From NCBI GenBank assembly GCA_021794595.1, contig JAJYQN010000099.1:1-55903 (forward strand): a stretch of 55,903 nucleotides of DNA. The letters are read 5' to 3'. The position numbers were made by a program, and so were the translations under genes. Positions 26,818-44,670 of the stretch are shown here, piece by piece. Under the pieces are notes generated by a model. It was not told where the DNA came from, made no database searches, and saw only the letters and a program-made list of their open reading frames with translations. Origin of the DNA: Pseudomonadota bacterium (GTDB lineage: Bacteria > Pseudomonadota > Gammaproteobacteria > Acidiferrobacterales > Acidiferrobacteraceae). Within the stretch, counting starts at the first letter, position 1, and every line of letters begins with the position of its first letter.

Positions 26818-26894
26818 CGCGAAACGCTAGAGTGCAGAATATAAAATCGGCTGACCCTGCGCCATTATCGCGTAACATTGCCCCTGGCGAGGAC

Positions 26895-27383
26895 ATGGCA
26901 ATGACCGTTTTTACTATCGGCTATGAAGGACTGGGCATTGACAGCTTCCTGTCATTGCTCGCACAACACGGGATCGACACCATCGTCGATGTCCGCGAGT
27001 ATCCTGTGTCGCGCAAGCCTGGCTTCTCAAAGAAAAGCTTGGCGAGCGTGCTTCACCTCTCCGGCCGGAAGTATGTTCACATAGGCGAGCTTGGTTGCCC
27101 GAAGCAGATCCGCGATCGTTATCGTGAAGACGGGAACTGGAAACGCTACACCGAGAGTTTTCTCAAGTATTTGCAAACGCAGACACCGGCGATCGCGGCA
27201 CTTTCGGAGCGTACACAGTTATCCCGCTGTGCGCTGTTGTGCTTTGAGGCTAATCACAACTTTTGCCACCGTTCTATGGTGGCTGACGCTGTACATACGT
27301 ATTGTGGCGCCCATGTTCGGCATATCGAGATTTCTTGCGCTAAAAGAGGGATCCCTGTGCTCCCTCAGTTGGCTTTTTGTTAA
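26895..27383 (+). CDS. DUF488 family protein
   Basis: A 162-residue protein with the DUF488 signatures: TVFTIGYEGLGIDSFLSLL at the start, the strand IDTIVDVREYPVSRKPGFSK, YVHIGELGCP, and the late CALLCFEANHNFCHRSMVAD, which has the conserved Cys-Glu and Cys-His-Arg residues. Function is unknown; a phosphatase- or nuclease-like role near DNA-processing genes has been suggested for the family. It ends 6 bases before the convergent res gene, with no room for a terminator. The start at 26895 matches the family N-terminus. Confidence 0.8.
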   Translation: MAMTVFTIGYEGLGIDSFLSLLAQHGIDTIVDVREYPVSRKPGFSKKSLASVLHLSGRKYVHIGELGCPKQIRDRYREDGNWKRYTESFLKYLQTQTPAIAALSERTQLSRCALLCFEANHNFCHRSMVADAVHTYCGAHVRHIEISCAKRGIPVLPQLAFC

Positions 27384-27389: not shown

Positions 27390-30380
27390 TTATGTCGCCC
27401 CATCCTGCGCGTTTTTCAAAACATCCGCAACAAAACGCGCAACCACGTACCTGGCCGGATTCTCACCGACGGCCAGTGCATGAAAATGCGCCTTGCCGCA
27501 GGCAATATTGGCGCTTTCCTTATTGCGCAAGTCGTCTGTGTACAGACTACTCTTGGTTTCGACTACGAAGTACAGGCGCTGCGTGTCGTCCTGCTCCACC
27601 AATACCGCCCAGTCGGGGTTGTAGCTACCCAGCGGCGTGGGCACTTTGAACCAGCCGGGCAGTTTGGCATACAACTTGATGGCGTCATTCTTCTCCAGTG
27701 CATCAGCAAAGTCCCGCTCGGTGCTGGAGTCGTACACCACGTGCTCGTAGATGGATTTTTCTGTGTCCATCAGCATGTTTTTGAGGTAGCCCGTGAGTTC
27801 TTCCTGGTCGAACAATTCCTGGGCATAGAAATGTTCGTCGCCCAGCTTCTGGTACTTGATGCCATCCACCAGCGCCAGCCGCTTGCAGCGGTTAACGGTT
27901 TCGGCAGCCAGCTCGATGAACTGGTGAGGATTACGCTTGAAGTCGTCAAGACGCCCGCTGCCGGTCAGGATGCTCGTAATGGTGCGGCGTGTGAGTTGGG
28001 TTCGGTCCTGCAAATCGGTGAGCAAGTCTGGAAGCTCGATGTCCGTCTCGTCCAGGACGATGGTCGCTGCACCCGCCTTTTCCGTGGCTTCCACGCCTGC
28101 CTTGCCAATGGCGATATCGGCCTTGCGCCACTGTAGGCGAGCCTTGGCGATCGCTGGGGCCTCCTGCAAAGCCGCGATGCAGTCCGATACCAGCTTGGCG
28201 TTGTCGAACTGCACGCGGTACGTGGTCTGGTGCTTGATCCGATCCCACAAGGCCTTGAACTCGACGCTGAGATAGATGGCCTTGCGTACCGGAACTTGCT
28301 TACGCTCGTCGGCGTTCTTGATCTCCAGACGGCCCGATACTTTGCGCAGCACCTCGGCGATTTGACCGCGTTGCGCATCGAACTCTGCCGGCAGCGCCAG
28401 TGTTCCGTTTTTCAGCGCAGTCTTCAGCGAATCCTGCACCTTGCCCTTGGCGTCAATGTGGCCGACGGCTTTCAGGTGTTCCCACAGCACCTTTGATTGA
28501 TCGATGCCCAAGGGCACGGTCTGGCCATCGGCAGATGTCACGGCAATCGCAGCAAACTGGTGCTGCTCGACGATGCCAAAGCGTACGCCCGTGTCGGCCT
28601 CGATCTCCTTCTGCAGGTTCTCGGCGAACTGCTCGTAGTTCTCGGTGGCAATCACGGTTAGCGTGTTGACTTCGAAGCCCCGCACGCGCTCGCCGTGCTG
28701 ATTGACGGCAAGGCGCAGTCCCCGGCCGATGGTCTGGCGACGCTCCCGCTCGGTCTGAATGTCGCGCAGCGTGCAGATTTGGAATACGTTGGGATTATCC
28801 CAGCCTTCCTTTAACGCCGAGTGGGAGAAGATAAACTTGAGCGGCGTCTCAAAACCCAGCAGCTTCTCCTTCTCCTTCATGATTAGGTTGTAGGCTCGCT
28901 CGGCGTTCTCACGGCTGCCTGCATTGCTTTCGCTGGTGTCCGTCCAGCCGCCTTTCTTGTCGATGGAGAAGTAGCCGTTATGTACTTCCTCAGCGGCACT
29001 CGCCCAATCAATTTCGGCGAACAGACTCTGATACGCAGGCAGCTTGGCCGCGCGCCGGTATTCCTCTTCAAAGATGCGGGCATAGTCACCCTTCACCGGA
29101 TTGCCATCGGCGTCGTACTGGCGGTATCTGTCCACCGCATCGATGAAAAACAGCGATAACACTTTGATGCCCAGGGGGCGCAGGCGCTTTTCCTTGTCTA
29201 GGTGCTCCTTGATGGTGCGGCGGATCATTTGCCGTTGCACCGCCAGGGCATCGACGTCGCCATGCGCCTGGCCCAAGGCCAAGTAGGCTTCACCACCGGG
29301 ATAGCGCAGTTCCAGAAATTCCTCGTCTTTGGCGGTGTTGATCTCGCCAATGCGAAAATCAGCGTAGATGGCTCTTTTGGCGGCCTGCTCCAGATCATCG
29401 CCGTCGCACACAGTGACTTCCTGCCTCTTCACCCCACTCGCAGTGCCCACGTCGAGCTCGACCTTGGCGCTGACTGTGCCGCGCTTGCTGCTCACCGACA
29501 CCAGCCGCACAAAAGGCTTGTTGTGGGCATCCTCTACGGTGGCCGAAGCCACCTCGATCTGCTTCACCAGCTTGCGTTCGTAGGCATCCACGGCATCGAG
29601 GCGAAACACCATGTGGTGCTTGTCCACGTGGGTGGCTGAATAGCGCAGCGTACAGAGCGGATTCATCGCGTTGAGCGCAGTCTTGCCCGCCCCTGAAAGG
29701 CCGCCGTCTACGCTTTGTGGTTCATCGACGATGACGATGGGACAAGTGGCCTTAATCAGGTCGATCGGTTTTTCACCGTCGGTCTTCTCGCTGTCCTTGT
29801 AAAGGTTATTGACGTCCTTCTTGTTGATTGCCCCAACGGTGACCACCATGATCTGGATGTTGGCGCTGGTGGCAAAGTTGCGCACCTGCCCGAGTTTGCT
29901 GGAGTCGTAGAGGAAGTAGTCGAACGGCACCCCGGCATACAAACCCTTGAAGTGCTCCTCGGTAATCTGTAAGGTCTTGTAGACGCCTTCCTTGATCGCC
30001 ACCGATGGCACTACGATGACGAACTTGCTGAATCCGTAGCGCTTGTTCAACTCGAAGATTATACGCAGGTACACATAGGTCTTGCCTGTGCCGGTTTCCA
30101 TTTCTACCGTGAAGTTGCCCGAGGCTAGGGACGCCGAAGGCGCGAGGCCGCCGCGAAGCTGGATGGCGTTGAGATTCTTCACGATTTCGTCGTCCAGCAG
30201 GGTCAGCCGGTTGCCGATGCCCATATCGTTCTCGGCAAAGTCCATTCGTTGCTGCGGATCGGCCGGGTCGCGAATGACGGTGAACTCTGTCCGACACATC
30301 TCCTGCCCGCGAAACAGGTCGCACACTGCTTCAATAGCCTGCAACTGATAGTCGAGATTTGGCTCGAAGTGCAGTTTCAT
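27390..30380 (-). CDS. Type III restriction enzyme Res subunit
   Basis: A 996-residue SF2 helicase-nuclease. The Q-like region QLQAIEAVCDLF precedes Walker A METGTGKTYVY (94-104). The DExx box is IVIVDEPQSV, motif VI is QTIGRGLRLAVN, and the C-terminal PD-(D/E)XK nuclease has NPDWAVL with Asp923 and VVETKS with Glu941 and Lys943. All catalytic motifs are present, so it is probably active. In type III systems Res needs Mod to recognise two head-to-head sites. It overlaps the 252-aa gene by ATGA. It is the last gene of the defence operon and is separated from mod by that gene and an IS5 element. Confidence 0.9.
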   Translation of the reverse strand: MKLHFEPNLDYQLQAIEAVCDLFRGQEMCRTEFTVIRDPADPQQRMDFAENDMGIGNRLTLLDDEIVKNLNAIQLRGGLAPSASLASGNFTVEMETGTGKTYVYLRIIFELNKRYGFSKFVIVVPSVAIKEGVYKTLQITEEHFKGLYAGVPFDYFLYDSSKLGQVRNFATSANIQIMVVTVGAINKKDVNNLYKDSEKTDGEKPIDLIKATCPIVIVDEPQSVDGGLSGAGKTALNAMNPLCTLRYSATHVDKHHMVFRLDAVDAYERKLVKQIEVASATVEDAHNKPFVRLVSVSSKRGTVSAKVELDVGTASGVKRQEVTVCDGDDLEQAAKRAIYADFRIGEINTAKDEEFLELRYPGGEAYLALGQAHGDVDALAVQRQMIRRTIKEHLDKEKRLRPLGIKVLSLFFIDAVDRYRQYDADGNPVKGDYARIFEEEYRRAAKLPAYQSLFAEIDWASAAEEVHNGYFSIDKKGGWTDTSESNAGSRENAERAYNLIMKEKEKLLGFETPLKFIFSHSALKEGWDNPNVFQICTLRDIQTERERRQTIGRGLRLAVNQHGERVRGFEVNTLTVIATENYEQFAENLQKEIEADTGVRFGIVEQHQFAAIAVTSADGQTVPLGIDQSKVLWEHLKAVGHIDAKGKVQDSLKTALKNGTLALPAEFDAQRGQIAEVLRKVSGRLEIKNADERKQVPVRKAIYLSVEFKALWDRIKHQTTYRVQFDNAKLVSDCIAALQEAPAIAKARLQWRKADIAIGKAGVEATEKAGAATIVLDETDIELPDLLTDLQDRTQLTRRTITSILTGSGRLDDFKRNPHQFIELAAETVNRCKRLALVDGIKYQKLGDEHFYAQELFDQEELTGYLKNMLMDTEKSIYEHVVYDSSTERDFADALEKNDAIKLYAKLPGWFKVPTPLGSYNPDWAVLVEQDDTQRLYFVVETKSSLYTDDLRNKESANIACGKAHFHALAVGENPARYVVARFVADVLKNAQDGAT

Positions 30381-31135
30381 GAGAGATACGCTCCTTTCAC
30401 AAACTGATCAAAGGTGACCACGCCGAGTATCTGTGGCCCATTACTCTTTGAGTACGAAAACAAACTTAGTCTCGACGCGTCATCTCCAATTTCTGTCTTA
30501 CTTACACGCTGGTTATAGGCAATCGTGAATTTTGCTCCGATACGGTTTGCGAGATTCGCAACGACGTTGAAATTGTCAAAGTCTTGTGGATAGGGCTTCC
30601 ATTTCTCTAGTGGATCGAAAGAGCGCTTCAATTCGACTAGCTCTGCGACTGATTTTGCACCAGCGTCGATCCGTATTAGATCAACGTCCGAAACCTTGAT
30701 TGAGCCGAGATTGTTGCGCTGCCAATTATGGTAGGCACTGCTTTCGGCAGAGTTAATTGGCTTCTGGGTTGCTCCTGCGTTCACTGGCAGCCCGACCTTT
30801 GAAAACCAATCTCTCAATGCCGATAGCTCGATCGAATTACCGTTCAGTTCTACTCGATCAATTGACGCCGCCCTATTATCAAACTGAATTACAGCAAATG
30901 GTAACTGGGCGATCTCTGCAAGCAGGTTTGCTGTTGTCTCGGCAGCCTTCAATCTGTCTACGATTTGCGAATCTGTGCTCCCCATGGAATGGCCAGACAC
31001 GAACGCCACCGCTCTAACATGTGCTGTATTGTCGGCGTAAAGTAGAATCCAGGCAGTTCCTGACGCCCAGATAAACTGCTCATTGCGATGAGCTTCCAGT
31101 AACTTATAAACGGCATTTGTAGCGTAGTAACTCAT
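30377..31135 (-). CDS. Putative PD-(D/E)XK-fold protein in RM operon
   Basis: A 252-residue protein without a recognised family name. Residues 150-200 read SDVDLIRIDAGAKSVAELVELKRS and then WKPYPQDFDNFN. An aspartate on one strand (Asp152) followed by ELVELK (Glu168, Lys170) is the layout of a PD-(D/E)XK nuclease core, and the following WKPYPQDF helix resembles helical parts of such enzymes. The N-terminal 120 residues are alpha/beta and unassigned. It starts exactly where IS5 has inserted and overlaps res by ATGA, so it belongs to the mod-res operon. It may be a second nuclease or a specificity factor. Its base composition looks more AT-rich than that of its neighbours. Confidence 0.55.
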   Translation of the reverse strand: MSYYATNAVYKLLEAHRNEQFIWASGTAWILLYADNTAHVRAVAFVSGHSMGSTDSQIVDRLKAAETTANLLAEIAQLPFAVIQFDNRAASIDRVELNGNSIELSALRDWFSKVGLPVNAGATQKPINSAESSAYHNWQRNNLGSIKVSDVDLIRIDAGAKSVAELVELKRSFDPLEKWKPYPQDFDNFNVVANLANRIGAKFTIAYNQRVSKTEIGDDASRLSLFSYSKSNGPQILGVVTFDQFVKGAYLS

Positions 31136-31137
31136 TA

Positions 31138-32413
31138 GGGAACCTCTATCAATCGGTCGTCAATAGTCTCATGAGGACTGAAAGCGATGAAAATTACTGG
31201 CCGAATCGATACACCGGGCAATTCGCCCTGAATTTCGCCATCTCTTTGACTCTGCGGAGGCGTTCCGTTGCCTCCCCTGTGCCGTTGCCCATCAGGCAGG
31301 CACACCTATCCCGTCAATCGGCATCTTCCGCGTCCTGATCAGAACCTCCAGACGCTTCAGGTTGTAGCTCAGCGCCTTCATTGTTGACCAGACCCGCATC
31401 CGCTCGATGCCAATAGTGCGCACCGTCATGCCACCCATTTGCGTCATCGTCGCAAACACATGCTCGACCCGCGCGCGCACGCGCGACTTGCGTCGATTCT
31501 TCCGCTGCTGCGTTGCGGTGAGCGGCCGACCCCGATAGGCTCTTTCGTGGACATGACTGCGAAATCCTCGACGCTTCAAGCGCTGTTCCTGCTCGGCGCT
31601 TCGGTACGCGCTATCGGCCCACACCTCCGGCCCTCGTTTCTGGGGCTTGCCTAGCAACTCGTCGAAAACCTGGCTGTCATGCACATGGGCCGCCGTCGAG
31701 CGTTCCTCGATCACCAGTTTCGTCTTCCGATCCACGCTCACGTGAGTCTTGTACCCGTAGTGGTCCCAGTCGTTCTTCTTCGTCCAGCGCGCATCGATGT
31801 CCTTCTGGCACCGCTTCGCAGCGTTCTTGGTCCAATCCTTCGGTATCGCCCCGTCCTTGATCGTCTCGTTCTCCTCCCGGGAATTGTGCTGCCTCGGTGC
31901 CTCCACAAAGCTCGCATCCACGATCTGTCCGCTGGTGAGCTTCACCCCCTGGGTGGCCAGGGCACGGTGAAACTGCTCGAACAGTCGATCGAAGACCTGA
32001 CCCTCGCGTAGCCGTTCGCGAAACAGCCACACGGTCTTGGCATCCGGCACCGTGCCAGCCAGGTCGATCCCGAGAAACCGCATGAACGTCAGTCGGTCGC
32101 TCACCTGATACTCCAGCGCCTCGTCCGATAGCCCGTACAAGTTCTGCAAGACCAACATCTTGAACATCACCACCCGGTCGATCGGCTTGCGCCCGGCTGC
32201 CGATTTGCGCTCCTTGTCGTCTATCCGCTCAAGTGCCGGTCGGAACATCTCCCAATCGATCACCGCATCGAGCCGCTCGAGCGCATCGCCCGCCTCGGAG
32301 AGCTTGGAGAAGCGCTTGTGTAGGTCATAGAAGCCGAATTGAATGTTCATGCCTCATTATAACTCCAACGACTTCATCACTGAAGGCAACAGAGCCAATT
32401 TTTCGAGGGGCCC
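31138..32413 (-). mobile_element. IS5-family insertion sequence with ATTA target duplication
   Basis: A complete element of 1276 bp. The ends are imperfect inverted repeats (GGGAACCTCTATCAATCGG at the left, complement of CCAATTTTTCGAGGGGCCC at the right). They are flanked by the 4-base direct repeat ATTA at 31134-31137 and 32414-32417, as expected for IS5. The target was the TAATG stop/start overlap of mod and the next gene, so duplication of ATTA restored both the mod stop and the downstream start. Confidence 0.85.
31292..32350 (-). CDS. IS5-family transposase
   Basis: A 352-residue transposase. It has an N-terminal DUF772-type region (RKPIDRVVMFKMLVLQNLYG and DRLTFMRFLGIDLAGTVPDA) and a DDE_Tnp_1 catalytic domain with IVDASFVEAP, WADSAYRS (second Asp), and the terminal RVEHVFATMTQMGG, which carries the Glu. 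Full length with no frameshift, so it is likely active or recently so. It is transcribed in the same direction as the defence operon, so read-through could supply some expression of the nuclease and res genes downstream. Confidence 0.95.
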   Translation of the reverse strand: MNIQFGFYDLHKRFSKLSEAGDALERLDAVIDWEMFRPALERIDDKERKSAAGRKPIDRVVMFKMLVLQNLYGLSDEALEYQVSDRLTFMRFLGIDLAGTVPDAKTVWLFRERLREGQVFDRLFEQFHRALATQGVKLTSGQIVDASFVEAPRQHNSREENETIKDGAIPKDWTKNAAKRCQKDIDARWTKKNDWDHYGYKTHVSVDRKTKLVIEERSTAAHVHDSQVFDELLGKPQKRGPEVWADSAYRSAEQEQRLKRRGFRSHVHERAYRGRPLTATQQRKNRRKSRVRARVEHVFATMTQMGGMTVRTIGIERMRVWSTMKALSYNLKRLEVLIRTRKMPIDGIGVPA

Positions 32414-32414
32414 A

Positions 32415-34442
32415 TTACAAACTCCGTATGTTACGAATGCCGTTCTGTTCCAAGATGGCAGTGAGATTTGTCTTGACGACATCGTCGGTGAACGCACTAT
32501 CACGGAAGACGCAAGTGGTGTCGCCCCCCGGGGTCAGCGCCTTGTGCCAGTCCGCGATGCCTTGCGCCAGCAGTTCAACTTCTTTGCGGGACAACTTTTC
32601 CGCGAGGCAGGCGATCAACACACCGCCGCCAATGGCATGGACTTCCTTACGGGCGATCTGGCGTTTCTCAATCGGCACGCAAAGATCGAGCCCAAGTTTC
32701 AGCAACAGCTCGCAAAGAATGTCTGCCTCGGTGCGATCCGGCAGGATGTGCTCCATGTGGTCAGTCAGTGTTTGCTTCAGGTTATCGCGGTTGGGGTTCC
32801 AGGCGCGGATGTTCGAGATGTCGAGCCTGAAGACACGGAAGCCGAGGTCACCCTTAAATTTGGGACTGTCCTTTTGAACGGCCTTTGCTGCACGACGCAG
32901 GCGTTCCTTGGTTATCTCAGCAAGATTCCGCGGTTCTTCCAGACTGTCGCAAAAGGCGGCTGCGGTTTTTTGTTCCTTGTTTTCGGGATCTAAGGGCTCT
33001 GGTAGCTGCACTAGAATATACCGGCGATTTCCGCCGTCTACGGCATTTTGAGTCATTACTGCGTGACCTGTGGTGCCTGAGCCGGCAAAAAAATCCATGA
33101 CCACGTCCTGTTCTTTTGTGCAACAGCCAATAAGAGAGGCGACAAGTTCCATCGGTTTTGGCTGATCAAACGGTATAGCAAGCTCCTTGAGGAGAGCATC
33201 GTCAGACCCGCCGAACGGAATGATCGATGGGACGTTTTCATACATATTTTCATCAAGAAAATAGATACGCTGTGGCTGAGTATTTTCGTCCGGGCCAAAC
33301 TCGATAAGCCCTCTCCGCAAGAGATCCTGCATAGTCTCCGGGGGATTGCGCCAGCCCCTTTCAGGTATGGGGCAAGGCCGTCTTGTCTTGGGATGAATCA
33401 GCGGTCTGAAATACTCATCGGGAGCTCTTTTCTTGTTTGGCCAAGCCATAGAAACAAGCCTATAAACCCGGCCGTCTGCGGAGATACGGTCGTACATAGC
33501 TTCCCCGCCCGACAGCCCATCTTGCGCCTTGAGCCAGTTTCGATATTGTTTAGCGGCCTCTCTTGTGCTCTTAGCTGTTCGCAAGGCTTCTTGCGTGTAA
33601 TCGAGCATTCTTTGTGCATTTCGCTTGGGCCGCTTTAATGGGGCTTGCTCAAACAAGATATCGGCATTGCGAGCGACCATAACAATCGATTCATGCTGAT
33701 ATGCGAGCCCACGTGCGTCACCCTTTGGGTTGCGCTTATCCCAAACGCCTACTCCTAGTTCGTTCTCTTCCCCAAATATTTCGCGTAGTATTATCACTAA
33801 TGAGTGGAGTTCGTGCTCATCGATGTGAATGACGATCAAGCCTTCTGGGGAAAGGAGGTCACGCGCGAGCTTCAATCTTGGGTACATCATGTTCAACCAG
33901 TTAGCGTGAAAGCGCCCACTGGCTTCGGTGTTGCTGCTGATCTTCTGCCCGCCTTCGACCTGCCCAGTCAGTTCTAGATAGTTCTTAATGTTGTCCTGGA
34001 AGTTGTCCGGGTACACGAAGTCCTTGCCGGTGTTGTAGGGCGGGTCGATGTAGATGAGCTTGACCTTGCCTGCGTAGCTCTTCTGCAGGAGCTTCAACAC
34101 CTCTAGGTTGTCGCCTTCGATCATCAGATTCTGGGTGGTGTCCCAGTCCACGCTTCCTTTCTTGCAAGGACGCAGGGTGCCGGTGCTGGGCGTAAGCGCC
34201 AGTTGCCGCGCGCGGCGCTTGCCATGCCAGTTAAGGCCATACTTTTCCTCAACATCCGTCACCGTCTGATCGCCTACGAGTTGTTTGAGCACGTCGAGAT
34301 TCACGGTCACGCCGCCCTTGCCCTCTGTGACAAGTTCGGGAAAAATGGCTTTGAGCTGGGCGAGGTTCTCGGCAACCAAGTCGCGCGACTTCGTTTCAGG
34401 GTCGTTATCGGACAGCTTCTTCATTGGATCCTCATCGTTCAC
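32415..34442 (-). CDS. Type III Mod-like adenine-N6 DNA methyltransferase
   Basis: A 675-residue beta-class adenine methyltransferase. The catalytic motif IYIDPPYNTG (131-140, DPPY 133-136) comes first, and the SAM-binding motif VMDFFAGSGTTGHAV follows near residue 450, the order typical of type III Mod. The DNTAS-like middle region carries target recognition. It would both specify and protect the recognition site for Res. GTG at 34442 overlaps the DUF4391 stop; ATG at 34424 after GAGGATCC is an alternative start. The stop TAA is reformed by the IS5 target duplication. Confidence 0.9.
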   Translation of the reverse strand: MNDEDPMKKLSDNDPETKSRDLVAENLAQLKAIFPELVTEGKGGVTVNLDVLKQLVGDQTVTDVEEKYGLNWHGKRRARQLALTPSTGTLRPCKKGSVDWDTTQNLMIEGDNLEVLKLLQKSYAGKVKLIYIDPPYNTGKDFVYPDNFQDNIKNYLELTGQVEGGQKISSNTEASGRFHANWLNMMYPRLKLARDLLSPEGLIVIHIDEHELHSLVIILREIFGEENELGVGVWDKRNPKGDARGLAYQHESIVMVARNADILFEQAPLKRPKRNAQRMLDYTQEALRTAKSTREAAKQYRNWLKAQDGLSGGEAMYDRISADGRVYRLVSMAWPNKKRAPDEYFRPLIHPKTRRPCPIPERGWRNPPETMQDLLRRGLIEFGPDENTQPQRIYFLDENMYENVPSIIPFGGSDDALLKELAIPFDQPKPMELVASLIGCCTKEQDVVMDFFAGSGTTGHAVMTQNAVDGGNRRYILVQLPEPLDPENKEQKTAAAFCDSLEEPRNLAEITKERLRRAAKAVQKDSPKFKGDLGFRVFRLDISNIRAWNPNRDNLKQTLTDHMEHILPDRTEADILCELLLKLGLDLCVPIEKRQIARKEVHAIGGGVLIACLAEKLSRKEVELLAQGIADWHKALTPGGDTTCVFRDSAFTDDVVKTNLTAILEQNGIRNIRSL

Positions 34443-35197
34443 AGCTTAGTGCGGACCGCGACCTGGATCGCCTCCACACGTTTTAGCTCTAAGTTCAGTT
34501 CCATTTGCCGCGCCATCTGCCTCTCTCTTGCGGCAGCGGCCCGTAAGCGGGCGATCTCCGCATCAAGCCGAGCGCATTCCCGCAAAGCATCGTGCCGGGT
34601 GGTAGCTTGTTCCGCGTTAGTGGCAACTGCGAATACCCCGGTCATACGGGCCGCGGTGAGCGCAAGTAATGTGTCTATCCAACCCTGATATAACGCATAA
34701 AGCGTTGTACGCGGCTGCCGGCCCAGCGCTAGCCCATTATGAAAGGCGGGCCAGCGTTCGCCATCGCGCTTTGCGTCCCATTCAACGGCAACAACATCAC
34801 CCTCCAACACCGCCTTGCCCGCCTCCCCCTGTGACCACCGTTTGTGGGCGGCAGAAAGTTCAGACCATTCACCCCGTTCCGTTAACAACAGTAACGGATA
34901 GGGTATTGCCCGGTGTAGCAGCTCCACCAATCGTGGCATCTTTGCCGCGCTGCGTAACGTGAGGCGCAGCACCGCGATCTCCAGGTATTCGCGCACGTCG
35001 TCGCGGTACTCAGGCACGCCGACGGTAGCGGGCTTAAGCACCGCCAGCCAAAGCAGATCCTCGACACCCTCATTGATGTGGCGCTTGTCAGCGGCGGTCA
35101 CCGCGCCATTTTCGAGCAACAACTTCTTGGGTACGCGCTGGTCCACGCGACTACTGGTCGGCAAATCGAGAGCGGCGAGGAGGGTGTCGCTGGTCAT
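34439..35197 (-). CDS. DUF4391 domain protein
   Basis: A 252-residue protein resembling DUF4391. It begins with LLAALDLPTSSRVDQRVPKK, then a pattern of a lysine-rich loop, VEDLLWLAVLKPATVGVPEY and LLLLTERGEWSEL, and ends in a coiled coil (CARLDAEIARLRAAAARERQ) with a basic tail. DUF4391 genes are often seen between a SNF2-type helicase and a type III-like methyltransferase, as here. The function is not known; the coiled coil suggests that it bridges subunits. It is coupled to the helicase gene by ATGA and to mod by GTGA. Confidence 0.75.
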   Translation of the reverse strand: MTSDTLLAALDLPTSSRVDQRVPKKLLLENGAVTAADKRHINEGVEDLLWLAVLKPATVGVPEYRDDVREYLEIAVLRLTLRSAAKMPRLVELLHRAIPYPLLLLTERGEWSELSAAHKRWSQGEAGKAVLEGDVVAVEWDAKRDGERWPAFHNGLALGRQPRTTLYALYQGWIDTLLALTAARMTGVFAVATNAEQATTRHDALRECARLDAEIARLRAAAARERQMARQMELNLELKRVEAIQVAVRTKL

Positions 35198-38100
35198 TCA
35201 GCCACCTCCGGCAGTACCGCCAACCAGGCCAGCACTTCAAAATCGTTGATGCCTGCGAACTCACCCTTCAGAACATGGGTGCCACCTGGGGTAAACAGGC
35301 TCGTGATAGCGCGCGCTTCGCTCATACCAACGACCGAGGCCACGGCGGCGGCGAGCAGGCGCTGCGCCACACGTATGTCCTCGCCCTGCTTGCTCGCCTT
35401 GTCGAAGCGGGCGCAGGCATCGACATCAGGGAGTTCGCGTCCGAGGCAGAGCCGCTTAAGCCGGTCGAGGATCTGCTTGGCCTGCGTGTAGGGAAGCAGC
35501 ACTGTGCCATCGTCACCCACATGCACCAGATACTGGGCTCCGAGCGGGTAGCCGGCCTCGACGTTGCGATGGGCGACAGCGCTCTCAGCACGAAGACAAA
35601 AAATGATACCCGGTGCGATCTCCGCTTCAGTGGTAGTCGTGACCGCGCAGGTACCGACCGGCAGATTCTCCAGTACGCCGGGATGCGCCTGAAGGTATTG
35701 CGCCAGATCGATACGGAAGTCGGTGAGCGTCAGATCAGCGATTGAGACACCGGTAGAAAGGTCTTCCAGATCAATCACGGCATCCTGGAGTTTTAGCAGT
35801 TGCTTACGGCGGTATTCCAAGTCATTCATCTGGTTGCCGGATTGCTGCTCAATCAGGTTCTCTTCACCTGTCGCGGAGATATCGAGCAACACCATGCGGC
35901 CGCTGACCCGCTGCTCCAGGTTGATGTACTCATCCAGTTCCATGTTGGGCCAAAAATTCACGAGCTGGATGCGTTCGTTGGGTGAGCCTATGCGGTCAAT
36001 ACGACCAAAGCGCTGAATAATGCGTACAGGGTTCCAGTGAATGTCATAATTGATCAACCAATCACAGTCCTGAAGGTTCTGCCCTTCAGAAATGCAGTCC
36101 GTGGCGATGAGCAAATCCAATTCGCCCTCACCGGCGAGTTCTTCCGGCCGCTCCTTCGCCCGAGGGGCGAACGCGGTAAGGATCGATGAAAGATCCCTAC
36201 GCAGGCCGGCGAGCGTGGTCTGGTTGCCGCCGGTGCCGGTAACCAGTGCTGCATCAATACCGAGAGTTGTCTTTACCCAAGGGGCAAGCTGGTCATAGAG
36301 ATAACGGGCGGTATCCGCAAAGGCCGTGAATACGATCACCTTGCGGTTACCGGGGTTGATCGGGTTACAGCACTTGTGTTCGATCAACTCGCGCAGGGCA
36401 GCGAGCTTGGCGTCACGGGAGGAGTCAACCTGGGCCGCCGCCGCATGCAGAGTTGCCAAGCGATTGCGGTCCTCGATCAGATCCTGCCTCCAGCGGATGA
36501 GGTCCACATCCTTCAGTAGCACTTTGACCTTGCGCCCGACCAGCAAACTCTCGAAGGCCGTATCATCGAGATCCACATCTTCAATGTCGATCTCCTCCAG
36601 TTCCTCGGCGTGGCCCTCAATACGGGCCAGCGTTGCTTCCACGTCCCGCAACTGGCGCTGTACGGTGAGCGCAAACGATGGCACTGCGCTTTCCATCCGC
36701 TTGAGCACGTTGACGCGCAACAAGTGGATCAAACTCTCTTCACGGTCGACCTGACGGAAAAAACCCTCGCCGCCGCGAATCTGGGTGCTGTACTTCTTGT
36801 CGTAAGCCCCCTGCTTGTGCGGCAGGACGTACCGAAGTGGCGCGTAGGAGGCGAGATTCAAGCGACGGATCTCGTTGTTGATCTCTCGTATGGAGCGGAA
36901 GTCGCCGGCGACGTCTACGTCCGCCTTGATGTTGATCGGCTTCAGTCGGTCCGGAAAGCGGCCAGTCTCGGCGGTTCCATAGTACTTTTCAATGTGCTTG
37001 CGTGACCGTGCGATGGTGAGCAGGTCGAGTAAGGTGAAGTAATCGAACCCAAGCATTTCGATCAGTCGCGAAGGCGTCCGGTCTGCGTCATTAAGATCGA
37101 GCCAGCGATTGAACTGCTTCTGTGCAAGGCGTGTGGTGCTATCGATGCTGCCGATACCGTGATCCCGTAAAGCCGTGTCGTTGCCCTCGGTGGCGAAGGC
37201 GATCTGGTTACGTAAATCCGCCATGCGATTATTGACCGGCGTCGCTGAAAGCATGAGTACGCGCGTCTTGACCCCTTCCTTGATGATCTTACGCATCAGG
37301 CGGTCGTAACGGGTCTCACTGCCCACTCGTGGCGTCTTCTTGTTGCGGAAATTGTGTGACTCATCGATCACAACAAGGTCATAGTTGCCCCAGTTCACGT
37401 GGGCTAGATCAATATCGCCCGATAACCCGCCATCTCGCGAGAGGTCAGTGTGATTTAATACGTCGTAGTTGAAGCGGTCGGGCGCCAAAACATTGCGGCG
37501 GTCATTGGCCTTATAGAGAGTCCAGTTGTCGCGCAGGCGCTTGGGCACTAATACAAGTACACGATCATTTCGCAACTCATAGTACTTGATGATCGCGAGC
37601 GCCTCGAATGTCTTACCGAGGCCAACGCTATCGGCGATAATACAGCCACCGAAACGGTCAAGCTTGTCAATCGCGCCGACTACGCCGTCCCGCTGAAACC
37701 TGTAGAGCTTCTTCCAGACTACCGTATTGCGGATGCCAGTCGCGGACTTGATAATGCGCTCTTCGTCAAGATCGTCGCCATGATCGCGGAAAAGATGGTG
37801 TAGGATTGACGCATAGACAAGAAATGGATCTCGGTGTGCTGCGAGCGCTTGCAGTACGGCGATCACCTCGGACTTTGCATCACCATCTGACGGCAGCCTC
37901 GACCACTGGGCATCGAACCACTGACTCAATAGCAACGCTTCTTCGGGCGTCTCCGACGTCTGGATCAGGCTCAAAGGGTTGCCCGGCGTCAATCCGAGAC
38001 CGTCAGTACTAAAGGACAGTGAGCCAAGGAGCACCTGCAACGGCTGTGCGGTCTCGTCACGAATTACGAAGGCACCCTGGGGTACTGCGCTAAGCGCTTG

Positions 38101-38391
38101 CCGGACTTCCGATTTGCTCTGAAGCCATTGTATTAAACGATCGGCAAGCCACCGCGTTTGCAGTCGGTTGCGTGCGGCACGGTCGGCGTCCGATCCTAAA
38201 ACCATAAGTTCCGCGCTAGCGGGCGGCAATAGTAGGCGGCATTGCGTTAGTGCGGCCACTTCACGCAATATCTCAGAAAAAGCGAAGAGCGAAAGAACCG
38301 GGGTGACAATGTCGAGTTGTCGCCCTGCTGTGAGTCCCGGGCGAAGCAGATCAATGACGCGGTCAGTGCCTGTGTTGCGAACAAGCCTCAC
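35194..38391 (-). CDS. SNF2-type helicase with PLD-like N-terminus
   Basis: A 1065-residue protein. Residues 1-140 resemble a PLD-like domain (LDIVTPVLSLFAFSEIL, LLGSLSFSTDGLGL) in which the HKD residues are degenerate. After it come an SNF2/SF2 helicase core with Walker A ADSVGLGKTFEALAI (Lys260), VVIDESHNFRN (DESH), SATPVNNR, and a C-terminal RecA domain with ITATDCISEGQNLQ-like and IQRFGRIDRIGS motifs. Such proteins translocate on double-stranded DNA and are common in DISARM, BREX-like and related defence loci. GTG at 38391 follows GAGGGGAG. It opens the five-gene operon. Confidence 0.9.
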   Translation of the reverse strand: MRLVRNTGTDRVIDLLRPGLTAGRQLDIVTPVLSLFAFSEILREVAALTQCRLLLPPASAELMVLGSDADRAARNRLQTRWLADRLIQWLQSKSEVRQALSAVPQGAFVIRDETAQPLQVLLGSLSFSTDGLGLTPGNPLSLIQTSETPEEALLLSQWFDAQWSRLPSDGDAKSEVIAVLQALAAHRDPFLVYASILHHLFRDHGDDLDEERIIKSATGIRNTVVWKKLYRFQRDGVVGAIDKLDRFGGCIIADSVGLGKTFEALAIIKYYELRNDRVLVLVPKRLRDNWTLYKANDRRNVLAPDRFNYDVLNHTDLSRDGGLSGDIDLAHVNWGNYDLVVIDESHNFRNKKTPRVGSETRYDRLMRKIIKEGVKTRVLMLSATPVNNRMADLRNQIAFATEGNDTALRDHGIGSIDSTTRLAQKQFNRWLDLNDADRTPSRLIEMLGFDYFTLLDLLTIARSRKHIEKYYGTAETGRFPDRLKPINIKADVDVAGDFRSIREINNEIRRLNLASYAPLRYVLPHKQGAYDKKYSTQIRGGEGFFRQVDREESLIHLLRVNVLKRMESAVPSFALTVQRQLRDVEATLARIEGHAEELEEIDIEDVDLDDTAFESLLVGRKVKVLLKDVDLIRWRQDLIEDRNRLATLHAAAAQVDSSRDAKLAALRELIEHKCCNPINPGNRKVIVFTAFADTARYLYDQLAPWVKTTLGIDAALVTGTGGNQTTLAGLRRDLSSILTAFAPRAKERPEELAGEGELDLLIATDCISEGQNLQDCDWLINYDIHWNPVRIIQRFGRIDRIGSPNERIQLVNFWPNMELDEYINLEQRVSGRMVLLDISATGEENLIEQQSGNQMNDLEYRRKQLLKLQDAVIDLEDLSTGVSIADLTLTDFRIDLAQYLQAHPGVLENLPVGTCAVTTTTEAEIAPGIIFCLRAESAVAHRNVEAGYPLGAQYLVHVGDDGTVLLPYTQAKQILDRLKRLCLGRELPDVDACARFDKASKQGEDIRVAQRLLAAAVASVVGMSEARAITSLFTPGGTHVLKGEFAGINDFEVLAWLAVLPEVAE

Positions 38392-38447
38392 GAGTCTCCC
38401 CTCACGTTAACCTCTACTCTTTCTGCAAAATACCATCCCGCTCCCAC

Positions 38448-38654
38448 CTACTTGGTGCTAGGGCGTTTCTGGCGTTTTTCAGGCACCATACCCGGGCCGG
38501 GAATCGCAATACCATTTCGGCCACAGTAATCCCGAATCAACACCTCGACCATATTGACGATGGACCGATGTTCACGAACCGCCGCCGTGCGCAGCGCTTC
38601 TTTCAGCCGTGGCTCAATACGAAAGGTCAACGTGGTGGTTTTGGCGGTTGCCAT
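38448..38654 (-). CDS. Ribbon-helix-helix regulator
   Basis: A 68-residue protein with an Arc/CopG-like fold. The strand TTTLTFRIEP is followed by helices KEALRTAAVREHRSIVNMVEVLIRDYC and a basic C-terminal tail. Proteins of this kind bind operators as dimers. It ends 57 bases before the helicase start on the same strand, so it may repress the defence operon that follows. The start at 38654 puts the strand at the N-terminus; the longer frame to 38741 is not needed. Confidence 0.7.
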   Translation of the reverse strand: MATAKTTTLTFRIEPRLKEALRTAAVREHRSIVNMVEVLIRDYCGRNGIAIPGPGMVPEKRQKRPSTK

Positions 38655-38904
38655 GGCGCCCTTCCCAAATAGGTTGCTGGAGATGTACTGCAATGTACAG
38701 TAAAGTCCGGCATAATCCAACGACTTACCACCACGGGACACGGAGGGGCGCTGCGTGATGCCGAAAATTTACCTCAACCAATATTGCGCCTTGTATACTG
38801 CCAGTTTCGGGGCGGGGTAGAAAGGTGGCGGGAGCCTTTTGGATACGGACAAACTGTCTTGTTCATAGCCGGGAACTTCATGGCGGTAACGGGGAATCGG
38901 GACC

Positions 38905-41900
38905 ATGACGCGCTTTGCCAGTTTGATGACCGTCCCCACTGAAACACGTCGCCTTCTACGAACACGGTTCGCGCGGTTCCTGCCGTCCCCACACGATGCC
39001 CCATACCAACCCGGACAACCAAGCACTCTTCCGGACGAGGACGTCCTTCAGATTTTCCTGAGTCTCACAATCGAAAGCGCCAGTGGCGTGGCTCGTGCCC
39101 GGCACATTTATACAGAGGCGGCCACGGAAACAGCTGACGCGCCCAAGATCGACACCCTCCTCGCCGCGGAAGGGTGTCGTGTCGTATGGGACCGCATTTT
39201 TATCTCCTTTGACACAGCACGTGCCGCACAAAAGGCCGACGATGTCCCTGCTTGGTTCAAGTCGTTCTTGGAACAGCGTTATGATGACCGTTATCACGCA
39301 GCCCTTGCGACAGGTGGAAGCCGCGAACTTCGCGAGGCCGTTGCGGCCGTTAACGCAGGGACCCTTCAACCACGCAATGTTCTCTGCCAATCACCAGACT
39401 GGGTGGCCGCCCGTCTTTGGGATCGCGCGCTGCCGGAGCCTTCCGATGCACCCCGTGCTCTGCGGACATGGGTGGATCGACGGGCACTTCTGGCCTATCG
39501 CTCACTGATACCAAGCCAAATTTGGGACGATATTGCCGCACAGACTTTTCGTGACGCCGCGATAGGCACCCTTGAGACAGCCTACCCATTAGGATGGGAC
39601 ACCGCCCGTGGTCTGTTCGTCCGCGAGTTAGCAATGGCAAGAAGGCAACCCCAATCAAGCTACGAGGGATTTATAGCCCCCGTTCCGGAGACTCTCGTTG
39701 ATCGGGTCCTGTGGCTGGAACAGCATACTCTAGAGCATGCTGTGTGGTCGGCACGATTCGCCGTTGAGGCCCTGTCGAGCCTGGTACATCTTCTGCTCGC
39801 GGACGTCGCGGCCGCCGACAACGCGCCGGCCCCTCATCCCCTCGTGCGCCGCCTCGTCAATTTGGCCCTTGACCGACCTGATCTCTTGCTTTCCCTTGTT
39901 AACCAAGCTCGCGCGGACGCGCGCCTCCTCGCCGACCTACTTTTCTGCCCGGAGACCTGTACTCTGGCGTGTTTACTGGTGGCACAGTGGACAGTTCGAC
40001 ACAGCGCTTGGGACACGGAACTGGTCCGACGTGATGGCGAAGTTGCCAAAGAAACGGCCTTTTCCGATGCTGTCTCGATCCTAGGGTCTTTCTTGCGGCA
40101 GGGGGCAGTGCCTCCCGCCGAAGCGGCGGCATTGCTAACCTGGATACATGCCAGCGGAAAACCCGGGTTTATTGAGGACCTGAGTACTGAGACAATGCGG
40201 TCCTCTCTACGAAGCGAGCTTGCCGGACAACCTCTGGACACACTGCGCGCATTAACAGCTGCCTTGGCCACAAACATGCCCGCATCTGGTTTGGGAACAC
40301 CCCTCTTTGCGGCCGCGCTTGATGTAATAGACGTTGGCCAACTGGCCGCAGATATCACCCCGGAACCCCTTGTTTTGGCCTACATTCAGTCAATCAAGGC
40401 GGGCGAATACCGTTTATCTGCACACCGAATCAGTAAAGGCGCCGCCGCCTCTCTCTTTGCGCTAGCCACCCGTACATCACGGGAATTATATCAACAATTC
40501 CTGTCTCCCCTCGATATTTCAACGCAGGTCAGGGAAGCCCATGCCTCTGAAGAAGAAAAGTATTCCTTACTTGATACCCTCGCTCGTGCGCTTCGTGCCC
40601 ATATACGCATGCTATGTCGAGCGATGGCCGGTTATGGTGACGCTATACCAGACGACCTCCGGGATACCCTCATTGCCACCGTGCGTGCGGGCGCAATCGA
40701 CTGCGCCGAAAGGAGCCAGATCTGCGTATTCGCCGCGCGCTTTGAGGTGAGCCCTTTTGGTGGCACTACGGACCGCCCGATTGCTGTTGATCTTTCCGCT
40801 GCGCTTCAGGCGTTGAACGGTGAAAACCAACGACTACTACTAACCGCGATCCTGGCAACCAACGAGCCTCTGGTGCTTGCGCAACTTCTATCCACAGCCC
40901 CCCACGATACCCGCGCACATATTAAAGAACGGCTCAATGTACTTACCCCCACAGACGCGAACGCCATACGTTCACTGACAGAGGTCCAGGCGCGTATTCA
41001 GGCACTCTTATCGTCTGGTGCTACTGACGCCGCGGCGCGCTTCATTGAAGCTGAACACACTGTTACCACCTTTGGTAAGGTTCCTGGCCGTGAATTGGCC
41101 CGCCTCGGAACTTCTCTGCAGCTTCAATTGTTACGTGAGGATTGGGACTCCCTTGCAAAGGCGGTCATATCGCCCGATATCGCTCCTTCCGAGCAAGCTT
41201 CGGCCAGAGATATCGTTCAGTTCTACCAAGCTGTCGCCGAAGTGAGGAAACCCAGCGGATCGCTAGAGCGGGCAGAAACGCTTTTTGCCAGCCTTCAAAC
41301 GCGACACTCCTATGTTGCCGCTTATGCGACGAATTTGTTCGCGACGCGGCTCAATCGCCTCCAAAGCAGCAATGCCTTTGCCTTGATTCGTGGTGAATCT
41401 CTCCGTCAAGGTCTAACCATACTGGCTGATGGGGAAGATATGATGGCAAATATCCGAGGCGCCGGACCATCTGAGTCCGACATTTTCACCTGCAACAAAG
41501 CTCAGTTACTGCTTGCCTTGGGTCAGCCCGAACGAGCCTATGAACTACTGGAGCCCATTTATACCGCTCGCCCGCGGGATTCCGTGGCGGCATATTGCGC
41601 CGTGGCGCTCTCGAGGATGGGGCGCTCCACAGAAGCGTTGGGTGTTTTGGGCCACGCCGAGCAAATGTTTGGTACAACAGATGTAGTACGCGCCGCTCGG
41701 TCACTGCTCCACGGGGATTCCACCGCTGTTGCCCGCATCAACCTCATTACGGACACGAAAAACATAGCGGCCATTAAACAAGCCTTGTTTGATTTGTCTC
41801 AGCTGGATCATATTTCCCAAACGAGCGTTTTTAAACCCCCGCCGGAATCGTTTGAGGCGTGGGTTATCGAGCAGGTCCGGTCAGCAGCCGCGAGCGTCGT

Positions 41901-42450
41901 ATCCCTCGTTCCCATGATGAAAGTCATTGTTCTTGACGAATGCGAGGATAATCTAAGCGCCTTAATCCGTGAATTGCTCACTGGCCGACTGGCCTTCATA
42001 GGGTGGTCCATAGTCGACCAAACCAAGGGTGGATTCACGTCAAAAGGTAATCCCGGTGAACGGGACCTCGTCATCAAGAGGCAGGAAACCGAGCTTACTG
42101 TGATCGAATCTGTTGTGTGTGGCCGCCCAGTTGATCGCGCATGGGAAAACGGGAAGCGCCATTTCCGGAAATTATTTTCTTATTCGTCATGCCACCTATT
42201 CTTCCATTTGACGTATGCGTACGTTGCAAATATCGTGTCTCTTATTGCTACACTAAAAGTTATCTCAGAACACGATGCACCAGCGGGGTTTGAGTTTTCC
42301 GGCTCGGAAGACATCCCACATACCGACTCTCGCCCTCACGGGTTTATGGCCCGCTACAACTCGCAGCTTGGCGAGGTAAAGGTCGTATTTCTTGTGCTAG
42401 ACCTAGAACAATCGGCACAAAAGACCGCTGCAAAAGTAGCCGGCCCCTAG
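38905..42450 (+). CDS. Large solenoid protein with nuclease-like C-terminus (1181 aa)
   Basis: An 1181-residue protein that I cannot name. Residues of about 60-1000 are alpha-helical, Ala/Leu-rich and repeat-like. Towards the end they resemble TPR units (KAQLLLALGQPERAYELLEP, YCAVALSRMGRSTEALGVLG). The last 170 residues are different: a strand FIGWSIVDQTKGGF, then GERDLVI (Asp1054), LTVIESVV (Glu1068), and a helix WENGKRHFRKLF with Lys1084. This is the outline of a PD-(D/E)XK fold with the lysine missing from the usual ExK place. It lies next to the RM/helicase operon, divergent from it. A phage-sensing effector is plausible but inferred. GGGGA precedes the start. Confidence 0.55.
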   Translation: MTRFASLMTVPTETRRLLRTRFARFLPSPHDAPYQPGQPSTLPDEDVLQIFLSLTIESASGVARARHIYTEAATETADAPKIDTLLAAEGCRVVWDRIFISFDTARAAQKADDVPAWFKSFLEQRYDDRYHAALATGGSRELREAVAAVNAGTLQPRNVLCQSPDWVAARLWDRALPEPSDAPRALRTWVDRRALLAYRSLIPSQIWDDIAAQTFRDAAIGTLETAYPLGWDTARGLFVRELAMARRQPQSSYEGFIAPVPETLVDRVLWLEQHTLEHAVWSARFAVEALSSLVHLLLADVAAADNAPAPHPLVRRLVNLALDRPDLLLSLVNQARADARLLADLLFCPETCTLACLLVAQWTVRHSAWDTELVRRDGEVAKETAFSDAVSILGSFLRQGAVPPAEAAALLTWIHASGKPGFIEDLSTETMRSSLRSELAGQPLDTLRALTAALATNMPASGLGTPLFAAALDVIDVGQLAADITPEPLVLAYIQSIKAGEYRLSAHRISKGAAASLFALATRTSRELYQQFLSPLDISTQVREAHASEEEKYSLLDTLARALRAHIRMLCRAMAGYGDAIPDDLRDTLIATVRAGAIDCAERSQICVFAARFEVSPFGGTTDRPIAVDLSAALQALNGENQRLLLTAILATNEPLVLAQLLSTAPHDTRAHIKERLNVLTPTDANAIRSLTEVQARIQALLSSGATDAAARFIEAEHTVTTFGKVPGRELARLGTSLQLQLLREDWDSLAKAVISPDIAPSEQASARDIVQFYQAVAEVRKPSGSLERAETLFASLQTRHSYVAAYATNLFATRLNRLQSSNAFALIRGESLRQGLTILADGEDMMANIRGAGPSESDIFTCNKAQLLLALGQPERAYELLEPIYTARPRDSVAAYCAVALSRMGRSTEALGVLGHAEQMFGTTDVVRAARSLLHGDSTAVARINLITDTKNIAAIKQALFDLSQLDHISQTSVFKPPPESFEAWVIEQVRSAAASVVSLVPMMKVIVLDECEDNLSALIRELLTGRLAFIGWSIVDQTKGGFTSKGNPGERDLVIKRQETELTVIESVVCGRPVDRAWENGKRHFRKLFSYSSCHLFFHLTYAYVANIVSLIATLKVISEHDAPAGFEFSGSEDIPHTDSRPHGFMARYNSQLGEVKVVFLVLDLEQSAQKTAAKVAGP

Positions 42451-42716: not shown

Positions 42717-43352
42717 TCAATACACCCGCATCTTCATCACCACAACTCCCACAATCACCATATCCGGGGTAACTGGGATAAGAGAATAGCGTTGATTCGC
42801 CGGTTTGAGGTATTTCTGGTCGTTGACCTCAACGATCAGCTGTTTAAACGTAGGCTCCGCTGAAGGCTTACCGATCACGATCACGTAATCCCCGCCCTTG
42901 GGTTCGCGATCGGGATCCACAGTGATGGCATCCCCTTCGCGAAAAACTGGCTCCATGGAGTCGTCGCACACATGGAGCGCGAACGTGCGCGGGCCGAACG
43001 TGCCCACTATAGCGACCCGATCCCCCGGGCCGCTCGAGTGAGGCGCGCCAGCCATCTCGTGCCAATCTCTTACCTGGGCCCAAGTGAGGAGGGGGATTAA
43101 GGACGCTGTGGGTTCTGCTCCCTTATCCATATCTTGGGTACGGTGTTTTGATCCCCTACCGGTAACCAGCCAGTCTGGAGAAACGTTGAGTGTTTTGGCA
43201 GCTGCCAGGAGATGGTCAGCTTTGAGTTCTTTTATGCTGCCATTCTCCCATTGACTCACAGCAGATTTCGTTACCCTGGCTCGTTTTGCAAGCTCCGGTT
43301 GCGAAATACGCAGATCTTCTCGCGCTTCTTTGATTCGTTGGCCGCAGGACAT
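42717..43352 (-). CDS. CI/LexA-type repressor with S24 peptidase domain
   Basis: A 211-residue phage-type repressor. An N-terminal Xre HTH (ISQPELAKRARVTKSAVSQWENG, about 17-39) precedes an S24 domain with the nucleophile in CDDSMEPVFREGD (Ser132) and the general base in TFKQLIV (Lys170). An Ala101-Gly102 pair lies before the peptidase domain as a candidate cleavage site. Such repressors self-cleave when RecA is activated by DNA damage. It faces the cro-like gene at 43416 across a 63-base operator region, so it probably keeps replication and transfer genes silent until SOS induction. 42451-42716 upstream of its end holds no gene I can support. Confidence 0.9.
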   Translation of the reverse strand: MSCGQRIKEAREDLRISQPELAKRARVTKSAVSQWENGSIKELKADHLLAAAKTLNVSPDWLVTGRGSKHRTQDMDKGAEPTASLIPLLTWAQVRDWHEMAGAPHSSGPGDRVAIVGTFGPRTFALHVCDDSMEPVFREGDAITVDPDREPKGGDYVIVIGKPSAEPTFKQLIVEVNDQKYLKPANQRYSLIPVTPDMVIVGVVVMKMRVY

Positions 43353-43415
43353 GTGTTAAGCGTACTTATCGATTGGTGCAGTGCGCTTGACTGTAAGTGT
43401 GCTGTACTCCTTTCC
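43353..43415. promoter_or_regulatory. Divergent operator region between repressor and cro-like gene
   Basis: The 63 bases between the divergent starts contain two related half-palindromes, TTAAGCGTACTTATC (43366-43380) and CTTGACTGTAAGTGT (43386-43400). Each has AAG/CTT- or ACT/AGT-type arms about 4 bases apart. This is where CI- and Cro-type proteins would compete. Confidence 0.5.
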
Positions 43416-43640
43416 ATGCGTAAGTCCGAAGCAGTCAGCATCTTTGGCAGAACTCAGAGTGACCTCGCACGGGCTCTAGGGATTTCCAAGTCCGCGGTGA
43501 GTCAATGGCCAGACGAGCTTGATCAAGAAAAAACGGATCGTGTGCTTGGTGCGGCTTTGCGTCTCGGTGTTGCTATGCCAGCCGCTTTTATCGGTCTTGA
43601 CGCCCCACTGCGGTGTAGCAATGAGACGGACCATGAATGA
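43416..43640 (+). CDS. Cro-like HTH regulator
   Basis: A 74-residue protein with a DicB/Cro-type helix-turn-helix: FGRTQSDLARALGISKSAVSQW, followed by a DELDQEKTDRVLGAALRLG dimerisation-type helix. It is the first rightward gene opposite the CI/LexA-type repressor, the classic place of Cro. It likely locks the switch in the active state by blocking repressor synthesis. It overlaps the next gene by 8 bases. Confidence 0.8.
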   Translation: MRKSEAVSIFGRTQSDLARALGISKSAVSQWPDELDQEKTDRVLGAALRLGVAMPAAFIGLDAPLRCSNETDHE

Positions 43641-43818
43641 CACCAATGCAGAAAGGCTCGGGTTAAACCCAGGGTTTCTCCGCCAGATGGCAAAAGGTCG
43701 GCGGAACCCGTTGCCAGAAACGGTAATGGCTATTGAGTGCGCTACCGAGGGCGTCGTAACCCGTGAGGAACTACGGCTCGATATGTTTTTGGCGCCACGC
43801 AGGCAATCGCGACCATGA
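43633..43818 (+). CDS. Small YdaS-like HTH protein
   Basis: A 61-residue protein. The run LNPGFLRQMAKGRRNPLPET, then MAIECATEGVVTREELRLDM, matches the second half of YdaS/Cro-like HTH proteins, whose members end in a VSREELRPD-type motif. It starts inside the end of the cro-like gene. It may be a second regulator of the early operon or a toxin-antitoxin-type partner. It is followed by a strong terminator, so it closes a short two-gene immediate-early unit. Confidence 0.6.
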   Translation: MNDTNAERLGLNPGFLRQMAKGRRNPLPETVMAIECATEGVVTREELRLDMFLAPRRQSRP

Positions 43819-43846
43819 CTAACCATCGCACTCCCATGGTGGGCAT

Positions 43847-44654: not shown

Positions 44655-44670
44655 AGGGGAAAGGGGGACT

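Follow-up and report, generated by a model that had tools for sequence, protein, structure and literature searches.

What kind of defence is encoded when the mod and res genes of a type III restriction-modification (RM) system share an operon with a SNF2-type helicase and a DUF4391 protein? The question is raised by a 55,903-nucleotide stretch of DNA (the window; assembly GCA_021794595.1, contig JAJYQN010000099.1) from a gammaproteobacterium of the Acidiferrobacteraceae. Its minus strand carries, in this order, genes for a small RHH regulator, a SNF2 motor with a PLD-like domain, a DUF4391 protein, Mod, an IS5-type transposase, a 252-amino acid protein (ORF4) and Res. An earlier, sequence-only reading of these genes, all of which proved to be real and correctly placed, had taken helicase, DUF4391, Mod, ORF4 and Res for a five-gene compound of DISARM-like and type III logic. 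Judging from gene order in other genomes, the conserved unit is instead the four genes SNF2-DUF4391-Mod-Res, inherited together as one operon.

The evidence for this unit comes from three sets of loci, taken from plasmids, from GTDB and from a sample of the window's phylum. The sets may share species, and the GTDB set consists of the best 80 of 221 loci and is thus skewed to near relatives. Where enough flanking DNA was present (for SNF2, at least 1.5 kilobases (kb) upstream of DUF4391), SNF2 lay upstream of DUF4391 in 10/10 plasmid, 73/74 GTDB and 18/18 phylum-sample loci; Mod lay downstream in 9/9, 68/69 and 18/19, and Res in 7/8, 54/56 and 16/17, respectively. The 80 GTDB loci span 13 named phyla, with one locus without phylum. 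On plasmids, the order helicase-DUF4391-methyltransferase recurs in Paraburkholderia, Acetobacter, Vibrio, Shewanella, E. coli, Enterococcus and the archaeon Methanomethylovorans; a Res-type helicase is annotated behind it in 7 of the 10 plasmid stretches, and the Res of the Acetobacter plasmid is interrupted by a transposon. DUF4391 was present in 23 of 398 sampled genomes of the window's phylum (~6%, the window's own included). Across the 398 genomes 20 of the 21 SNF2 matches above 340 bits adjoin it, match numbers here being lower bounds because the SNF2 and Res searches scored no more than two candidates in each genome; the five DUF4391 loci without a SNF2 match all lie near contig ends. 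DUF4391 marks this operon in nearly every examined locus with enough flank, and an annotation made from Mod and Res alone would return a plain type III RM system and miss half of the core.

The four core proteins also vary together. Their pairwise distances over 73 loci correlate at r = 0.90-0.97, values that still contain shared host ancestry, with the highest (0.968) between SNF2 and DUF4391; the maximum in a permutation control (500 per pair) was 0.315. One might still ascribe the arrangement to chance neighbourhood in a defence island, given that Mod-Res also occurs without the SNF2-DUF4391 pair. However, order and strand are identical across unrelated replicons and phyla, and 56 of the 72 junctions at which SNF2 directly adjoins DUF4391 are overlaps of 4 or 1 bases, which refutes chance for the core and leaves it a scarcely credible account of the locus, possible for ORF4 alone.

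Mod and Res are themselves recognizable as type III subunits. They match the Mod and Res chains of EcoP15I (4zcf) at E values of 1.3e-70 and 8.3e-61, respectively. In alignments restricted to complete open reading frames (ORFs) above a length limit (98 SNF2, 107 DUF4391, 105 Mod and 89 Res sequences, omitting the window copies L001 and L006), the DPPY motif is found in 103/105 Mod homologs, and in Res the Walker A and DEPQ motifs are found in 89/89 and the PD..ETK motif in 88/89. The operon thus has an EcoP15I-type Mod with N6-methylase motifs and a Res with an SF2 motor and a C-terminal endonuclease, both homologous to the 4zcf chains over long ranges. Unlike EcoP15I, it carries SNF2 and DUF4391 in front and cargo between the genes. 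Because SNF2 and DUF4391 are regular partners, the standard makeup of mod and res alone does not describe it, and the operon is a variant rather than a standard member of type III. Type III enzymes are further characterized by a Mod2Res1 assembly, ATP-dependent cleavage that involves two sites, and methylation of a single strand. The linkage counts bear out the earlier suggestion that the operon goes beyond an ordinary type III RM system, the pair belonging to it.

The SNF2 protein had been described as PLD-like, and by its sequence that label is right as ancestry, with the glycine of the GLG turn (G133) retained in 98/98 homologs. HxK is the catalytic motif of the PLD family, and this part of the label fell away: the motif is missing from 97/98 homologs, the window's included. 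Walker A, DESH and motif VI of the motor are kept in 98/98. With the motor motifs intact and HxK absent, the protein is probably a motor rather than a nuclease. The sole bearer of the motif, L116, which was retained in the alignment, has HxKx4D, its HGK aligned over P104-Q105-G106 of the window protein (H over P104, K over G106). Beside its SNF2 gene lie an Eco57I-type methyltransferase and a diverged DUF4391-like gene (17 bits, below cut-off), and neither Mod nor Res was found in the stretch examined. From this one outgroup locus, the role of nuclease may have passed to Res.

Against solved structures, the top matches of SNF2 were to RapA (E 4.7e-9). Since RapA is the best structural match and SNF2 has no active nuclease motif, the pair could be a regulator or safety device, for example a remodeller of the RapA kind, controlling expression or removing Mod-Res from host DNA to avert self-damage. 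We consider this improbable. The match is confined to residues 250-349, that is, to the shared helicase core, and type III loci without the pair exist, so that there is no general need for such protection.

DUF4391 offers fewer comparisons. Its AlphaFold2 model is confident (pLDDT 93.6, pTM 0.89) and consists of an alpha/beta domain followed by three long C-terminal helices. A fold search of solved and viral structures returned no match at E<=0.001; the top matches (E 0.029 and 0.023, respectively) had TM-scores below 0.2. PADLOC returned no match for it. The protein also matches phrog_37194, a family of unknown function (E 2e-10), which implies that relatives exist in phages or prophages. In the open-licence literature (mostly without preprints and subscription papers) DUF4391 appeared in a single paper, as a table row with no function given.

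Taken together, we put at roughly 60% the reading that the operon encodes one type III-based RM system, supplemented by an accessory motor and by second-line defences embedded in the operon. In such a system Mod would methylate the cell's own DNA at an asymmetric adenine site, and the Mod-Res complex would bind unmodified sites on foreign DNA, where the Res nuclease would cut. SNF2 and DUF4391 would form a subcomplex, with DUF4391 as an adaptor acting through its C-terminal helices, and would dock on Mod-Res as an additional ATP-driven motor. This motor might translocate or remodel DNA, strip roadblocks or lessen the dependence on two head-to-head sites. The nuclease function of the PLD-like domain may have become dispensable because Res supplies the cut, and genes between the core genes, here ORF4, would be exchangeable second-line defences co-expressed with the core.

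Several observations weigh against this reading, besides the skew of the GTDB set and the host ancestry contained in the distance correlations. Exceptions to the gene order exist: L027 is without SNF2, L057 and L121 are without Mod, and L011, L033, L073 and L121 are without Res. Half of the Res matches above 600 bits (19/38) have no DUF4391 within 10 kb, 15 of them in genomes without any DUF4391 match and 4 with DUF4391 on another contig; since Mod-Res occurs without the pair, the motor pair is probably not required for type III restriction as such. In a FastTree phylogeny of Res, the DUF4391-bearing loci do not form one clade: 73 loci with and 13 without it imply 7 changes, where shuffles average 12.3, and long branches were flagged. 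Gain and loss cannot be read from this tree because several of the 13 loci end at contig edges and the Mod ORF of L124 has just 243 amino acids. A hand-over of cleavage from the PLD-like domain to Res draws on a single outgroup locus (L116); L011 has a His at the motif position without the Lys, and HxKx4-6D matches occur elsewhere in 8/98 SNF2 proteins, which we judged to be chance. As DUF4391 has no fold match, its adaptor role is a guess from shape.

Some of the same facts could mean that two separate defences share one transcript, with SNF2-DUF4391 a system of its own (e.g., a modification-dependent restrictor) riding with a type III RM system. Mod-Res is found without the pair, and the one SNF2 of 98 with HxK pairs with another type of methyltransferase. 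Further, PMC12839542 describes helicases with an HKD nuclease domain as the primary effectors of type-2 BREX-related systems. We regard two separate defences as unlikely, if a serious alternative, for loci that have the pair but not Mod are rare (L057, L121 and the diverged L116), no nuclease is known in the pair itself once HxK is gone, and all four proteins are tightly co-inherited. The sequence-only reading had named regular separation of the two pairs as what would refute it. Separation turned out to be one-sided, with Mod-Res occurring alone and the motor pair rarely so. Operons of this kind allow type III restriction to be compared cleanly in the presence and absence of an extra motor, and possibly offer a natural case of a nuclease domain dying once another nuclease takes over. 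As a separate observation, two loci (L131 12112-14961 and L133 11068-13998, both on the minus strand) have a different SNF2-type helicase directly upstream of a divergent Mod-Res, without DUF4391, and given these the pairing of SNF2 with type III genes may have arisen more than once.

No name for the four-gene set was found in the literature searched, just as the earlier reading had no established name for its five-gene set, and comparison with known systems gave partial likenesses only. The best PADLOC family for SNF2 was C3a139 "HKD+Snf2" (356 bits), which models the helicase only. BREX-related type-2 systems (PMC12839542) couple an HKD-Snf2 helicase to an N6 methyltransferase and include a DUF499 ATPase and DUF3780. 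Unlike them, the operon has a type III Mod-Res and a degenerate PLD domain, and Pfam shows neither DUF499 nor DUF3780 in its proteins. DUF499 does occur on three other contigs of the genome (C106, C72 and C15), not on the window's contig (C96). Contigs C106 and C15 also carry SNF2 similarity, and the genome may thus hold further BREX-related or Hma-type systems.

The proposed DISARM-like logic did not survive. Class 1 DISARM (DrmD/DrmMI) likewise has a SNF2-type helicase near a methyltransferase, and SNF2 shows a weak similarity to DrmD (128.6 bits in PADLOC, 155.2 bits in NCBIfam), so that one could imagine a fusion of a DISARM variant with a type III RM system. However, the NCBIfam cut-off for DrmD is 610 bits. 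The defining genes of DISARM include DrmA and DrmB (MZB/DUF1998). No DrmB or DrmC was among the PADLOC matches listed for the operon proteins, and the only DrmA match listed (80.6 bits) is SNF2 itself. The MZB domain PF09369, which we take to be the mark of DrmB, was found in 0/1 for the window's own genome (assembly 92% complete), and the control gave matches in 8/14. With DrmD far below its cut-off and no MZB domain found in the assembly, the operon falls short on two defining features; we rejected DISARM membership and hold a fused variant to be extremely improbable. By the tests made, and as far as sequence can tell, the operon is a variant of type III RM whose extra parts are regular; it is not DISARM and not a DUF499 system.

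The fifth gene of the proposed set, ORF4, belongs to a different layer. No homolog of it was found in the 137 other loci compared; ORF4 is therefore cargo and the core comprises four genes, and it is this core, not the five-gene set whose neighbourhood was to be checked, that recurs in other genomes. Searches with ORF4 as query gave no homolog in the 298 other genomes of the phylum sample, none in phage records and none in viral contigs (the latter by exact peptide patterns); PHROGs gave weak matches only. Its single distant homolog is encoded on a plasmid of Allomeiothermus silvanus, within another RM-type operon, where an Eco57I-type methyltransferase gene set and a SNF2 helicase flank it. 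Used as a query in turn, that homolog retrieved itself alone among plasmids, and from the phylum sample the window's own copy plus one marginal match (E 0.004, 38 residues). The two proteins have in common a motif, D150/D152 ... E168-L-K170, and WKPY. The suggestion of a PD-(D/E)XK enzyme holds to this extent, that ORF4 is a putative nuclease by a D...ExK motif in two sequences; no Pfam family scored above its cut-off, and a single-sequence AlphaFold2 model reached a pLDDT of 35. Its GC content is 0.473, compared with 0.53-0.60 for the four core genes. The A. silvanus stretch itself (L139 1325-8866) is a compact RM-like operon of an Eco57I-type methyltransferase, the ORF4-like gene and a PLD-SNF2 helicase with a HAK motif.

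Comparison with close relatives indicates how ORF4 sits in the operon. In the Res tree the nearest relatives of the window's Res are L080 and L038, and DNA similarity to them ends <=2 bases from the Mod stop and restarts <=1 base from the Res start. The slot between Mod and Res holds SoFic in L080 and nothing in L038. These exact borders, together with the different contents, imply that ORF4 and the insertion element occupy a site of exchange.

Such exchange extends to the other gaps of the core. Counting mechanical ORF calls of at least 100 amino acids on the operon strand, extra ORFs occur between SNF2 and DUF4391 in 16/105 loci, between DUF4391 and Mod in 23/105 and between Mod and Res in 40/92; not counting the window, 52 of 85 complete loci have at least one. 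Among ORFs of at least 150 amino acids between SNF2 and Res, 84/88 run along the operon and 4 against it (the window's transposase included). The 99 cargo ORFs fall into 39 clusters; 38 were scanned with Pfam (39 with the window's transposase) and 18 with PADLOC, and the rest were clustered with those only. The GmrSD cluster has 17 members and by clustering reaches all three slots (Pfam-checked in the first two). Other representatives match RhuM/PDC-S05, SLFN-AlbA, YhcG/PDC-S02, Fic beside PDC-M59A, SoFic, DarT, macro domains, IetS, PsyrT with PsyrA, AbiL, a Zeta-like kinase, UvrD-type helicases and PDC-S68; cargo of L035, L010, L056 and L047 is among the ORFs without any match. The slot genes form a candidate list of new defences. 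One Mod-Res slot, in L012 (11805-13491, Acinetobacter gerneri plasmid), holds a 453-amino acid ORF clustering with GmrSD cargo and then a 119-amino acid ORF, and adjoins Tn7-like transposition genes.

Defences embedded in other defences are reportedly the subject of a 2024 preprint by Payne et al. Such cases resemble the operon in that known defence genes are nested in another defence operon; they differ in that here the SNF2-DUF4391 type III core acts as the carrier and offers three slots, the one between Mod and Res being used most often. PMC12988326 and PMC12255303 treat embedding in RM operons as a known principle, the latter with DarTG2 inside a type I RM system. A bolder version of the single-system reading would make the operon one of an unnamed and widespread class, in which a dead-nuclease SNF2 motor and DUF4391 form an obligate third arm of the Mod-Res complex and descend from a motor-nuclease that worked with another methyltransferase. 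The operon would then be a socketed chassis with three fixed slots for exchangeable back-up defences, and slot genes such as ORF4 would be new immune effectors. We offer this tentatively and would sooner expect it to fail than to hold.

Table 1. Genes of the operon and inserted elements, in order of transcription (positions in the window)
Feature	Coordinates	Strand	Remarks
RHH (Arc/CopG-like) small regulator	38448..38741	-	In front of operon; alternative ATG start 38654
SNF2 motor, catalytically degenerate N-terminal PLD-like domain, 1065 aa	35194..38391	-	Pfam Helicase_C, SNF2-rel_dom
DUF4391 protein, 252 aa	34439..35197	-	Pfam PF14335, E 2.2e-75
Mod, type III N6-adenine methyltransferase, 675 aa	32415..34442	-	PADLOC MTase_III, 785 bits
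IS5-type transposase gene in Mod-Res slot	31292..32350	-	Pfam DDE_Tnp_1, DUF772
ORF4, 252-aa cargo protein, putative PD-(D/E)XK nuclease	30377..31135	-	Motif shared with one distant homolog
Res, type III restriction subunit, SF2 motor and C-terminal PD-(D/E)XK endonuclease, 996 aa	27390..30380	-	PADLOC REase_III, 1400 bits

At the junctions, the coupling by 4-base overlaps that had been proposed is present at SNF2/DUF4391 and ORF4/Res; at DUF4391/Mod it holds given the Mod start GTG 34442 and would be abolished by the in-frame ATG at 34424. The assembly yielded no second copy of the IS5-type element, which sits within the 1.28 kb separating the Mod stop from ORF4 and leaves Mod and the downstream ORFs open. 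The RHH gene is present in front of the operon as described, 56 bases from SNF2. It has a match to a PHROG Arc-like repressor (E 3.9e-4), with Pfam RHH_5 below cut-off, and clusters with the small ORF preceding SNF2 in 5 other loci; 9 others share a different cluster of small ORFs, with a helix-turn-helix annotation for one member.

Around the operon, a DUF488 gene (26832-27383, plus strand) converges on Res, 6 bases from its stop, and matches the PADLOC candidates PDC-M19A and PDC-M45. A gene for a 1181-amino acid protein (38905-42450, plus strand) diverges from the operon; Pfam and PADLOC gave no match for it. A DUF4062 protein is encoded at 3546-5285 on the minus strand, and L032 has a DUF4062 gene among its slot cargo. 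Three further regions (5387-12151, minus; 20242-21285, plus; 42717-53310, both strands) encode two ATPases of the T2SSE type, an outer membrane core protein of the DotH/IcmK type, a DUF1376 protein and a repressor of the S24 type, and give a weak integrase match below cut-off; from these neighbours the operon may be riding on an integrative or conjugative element.

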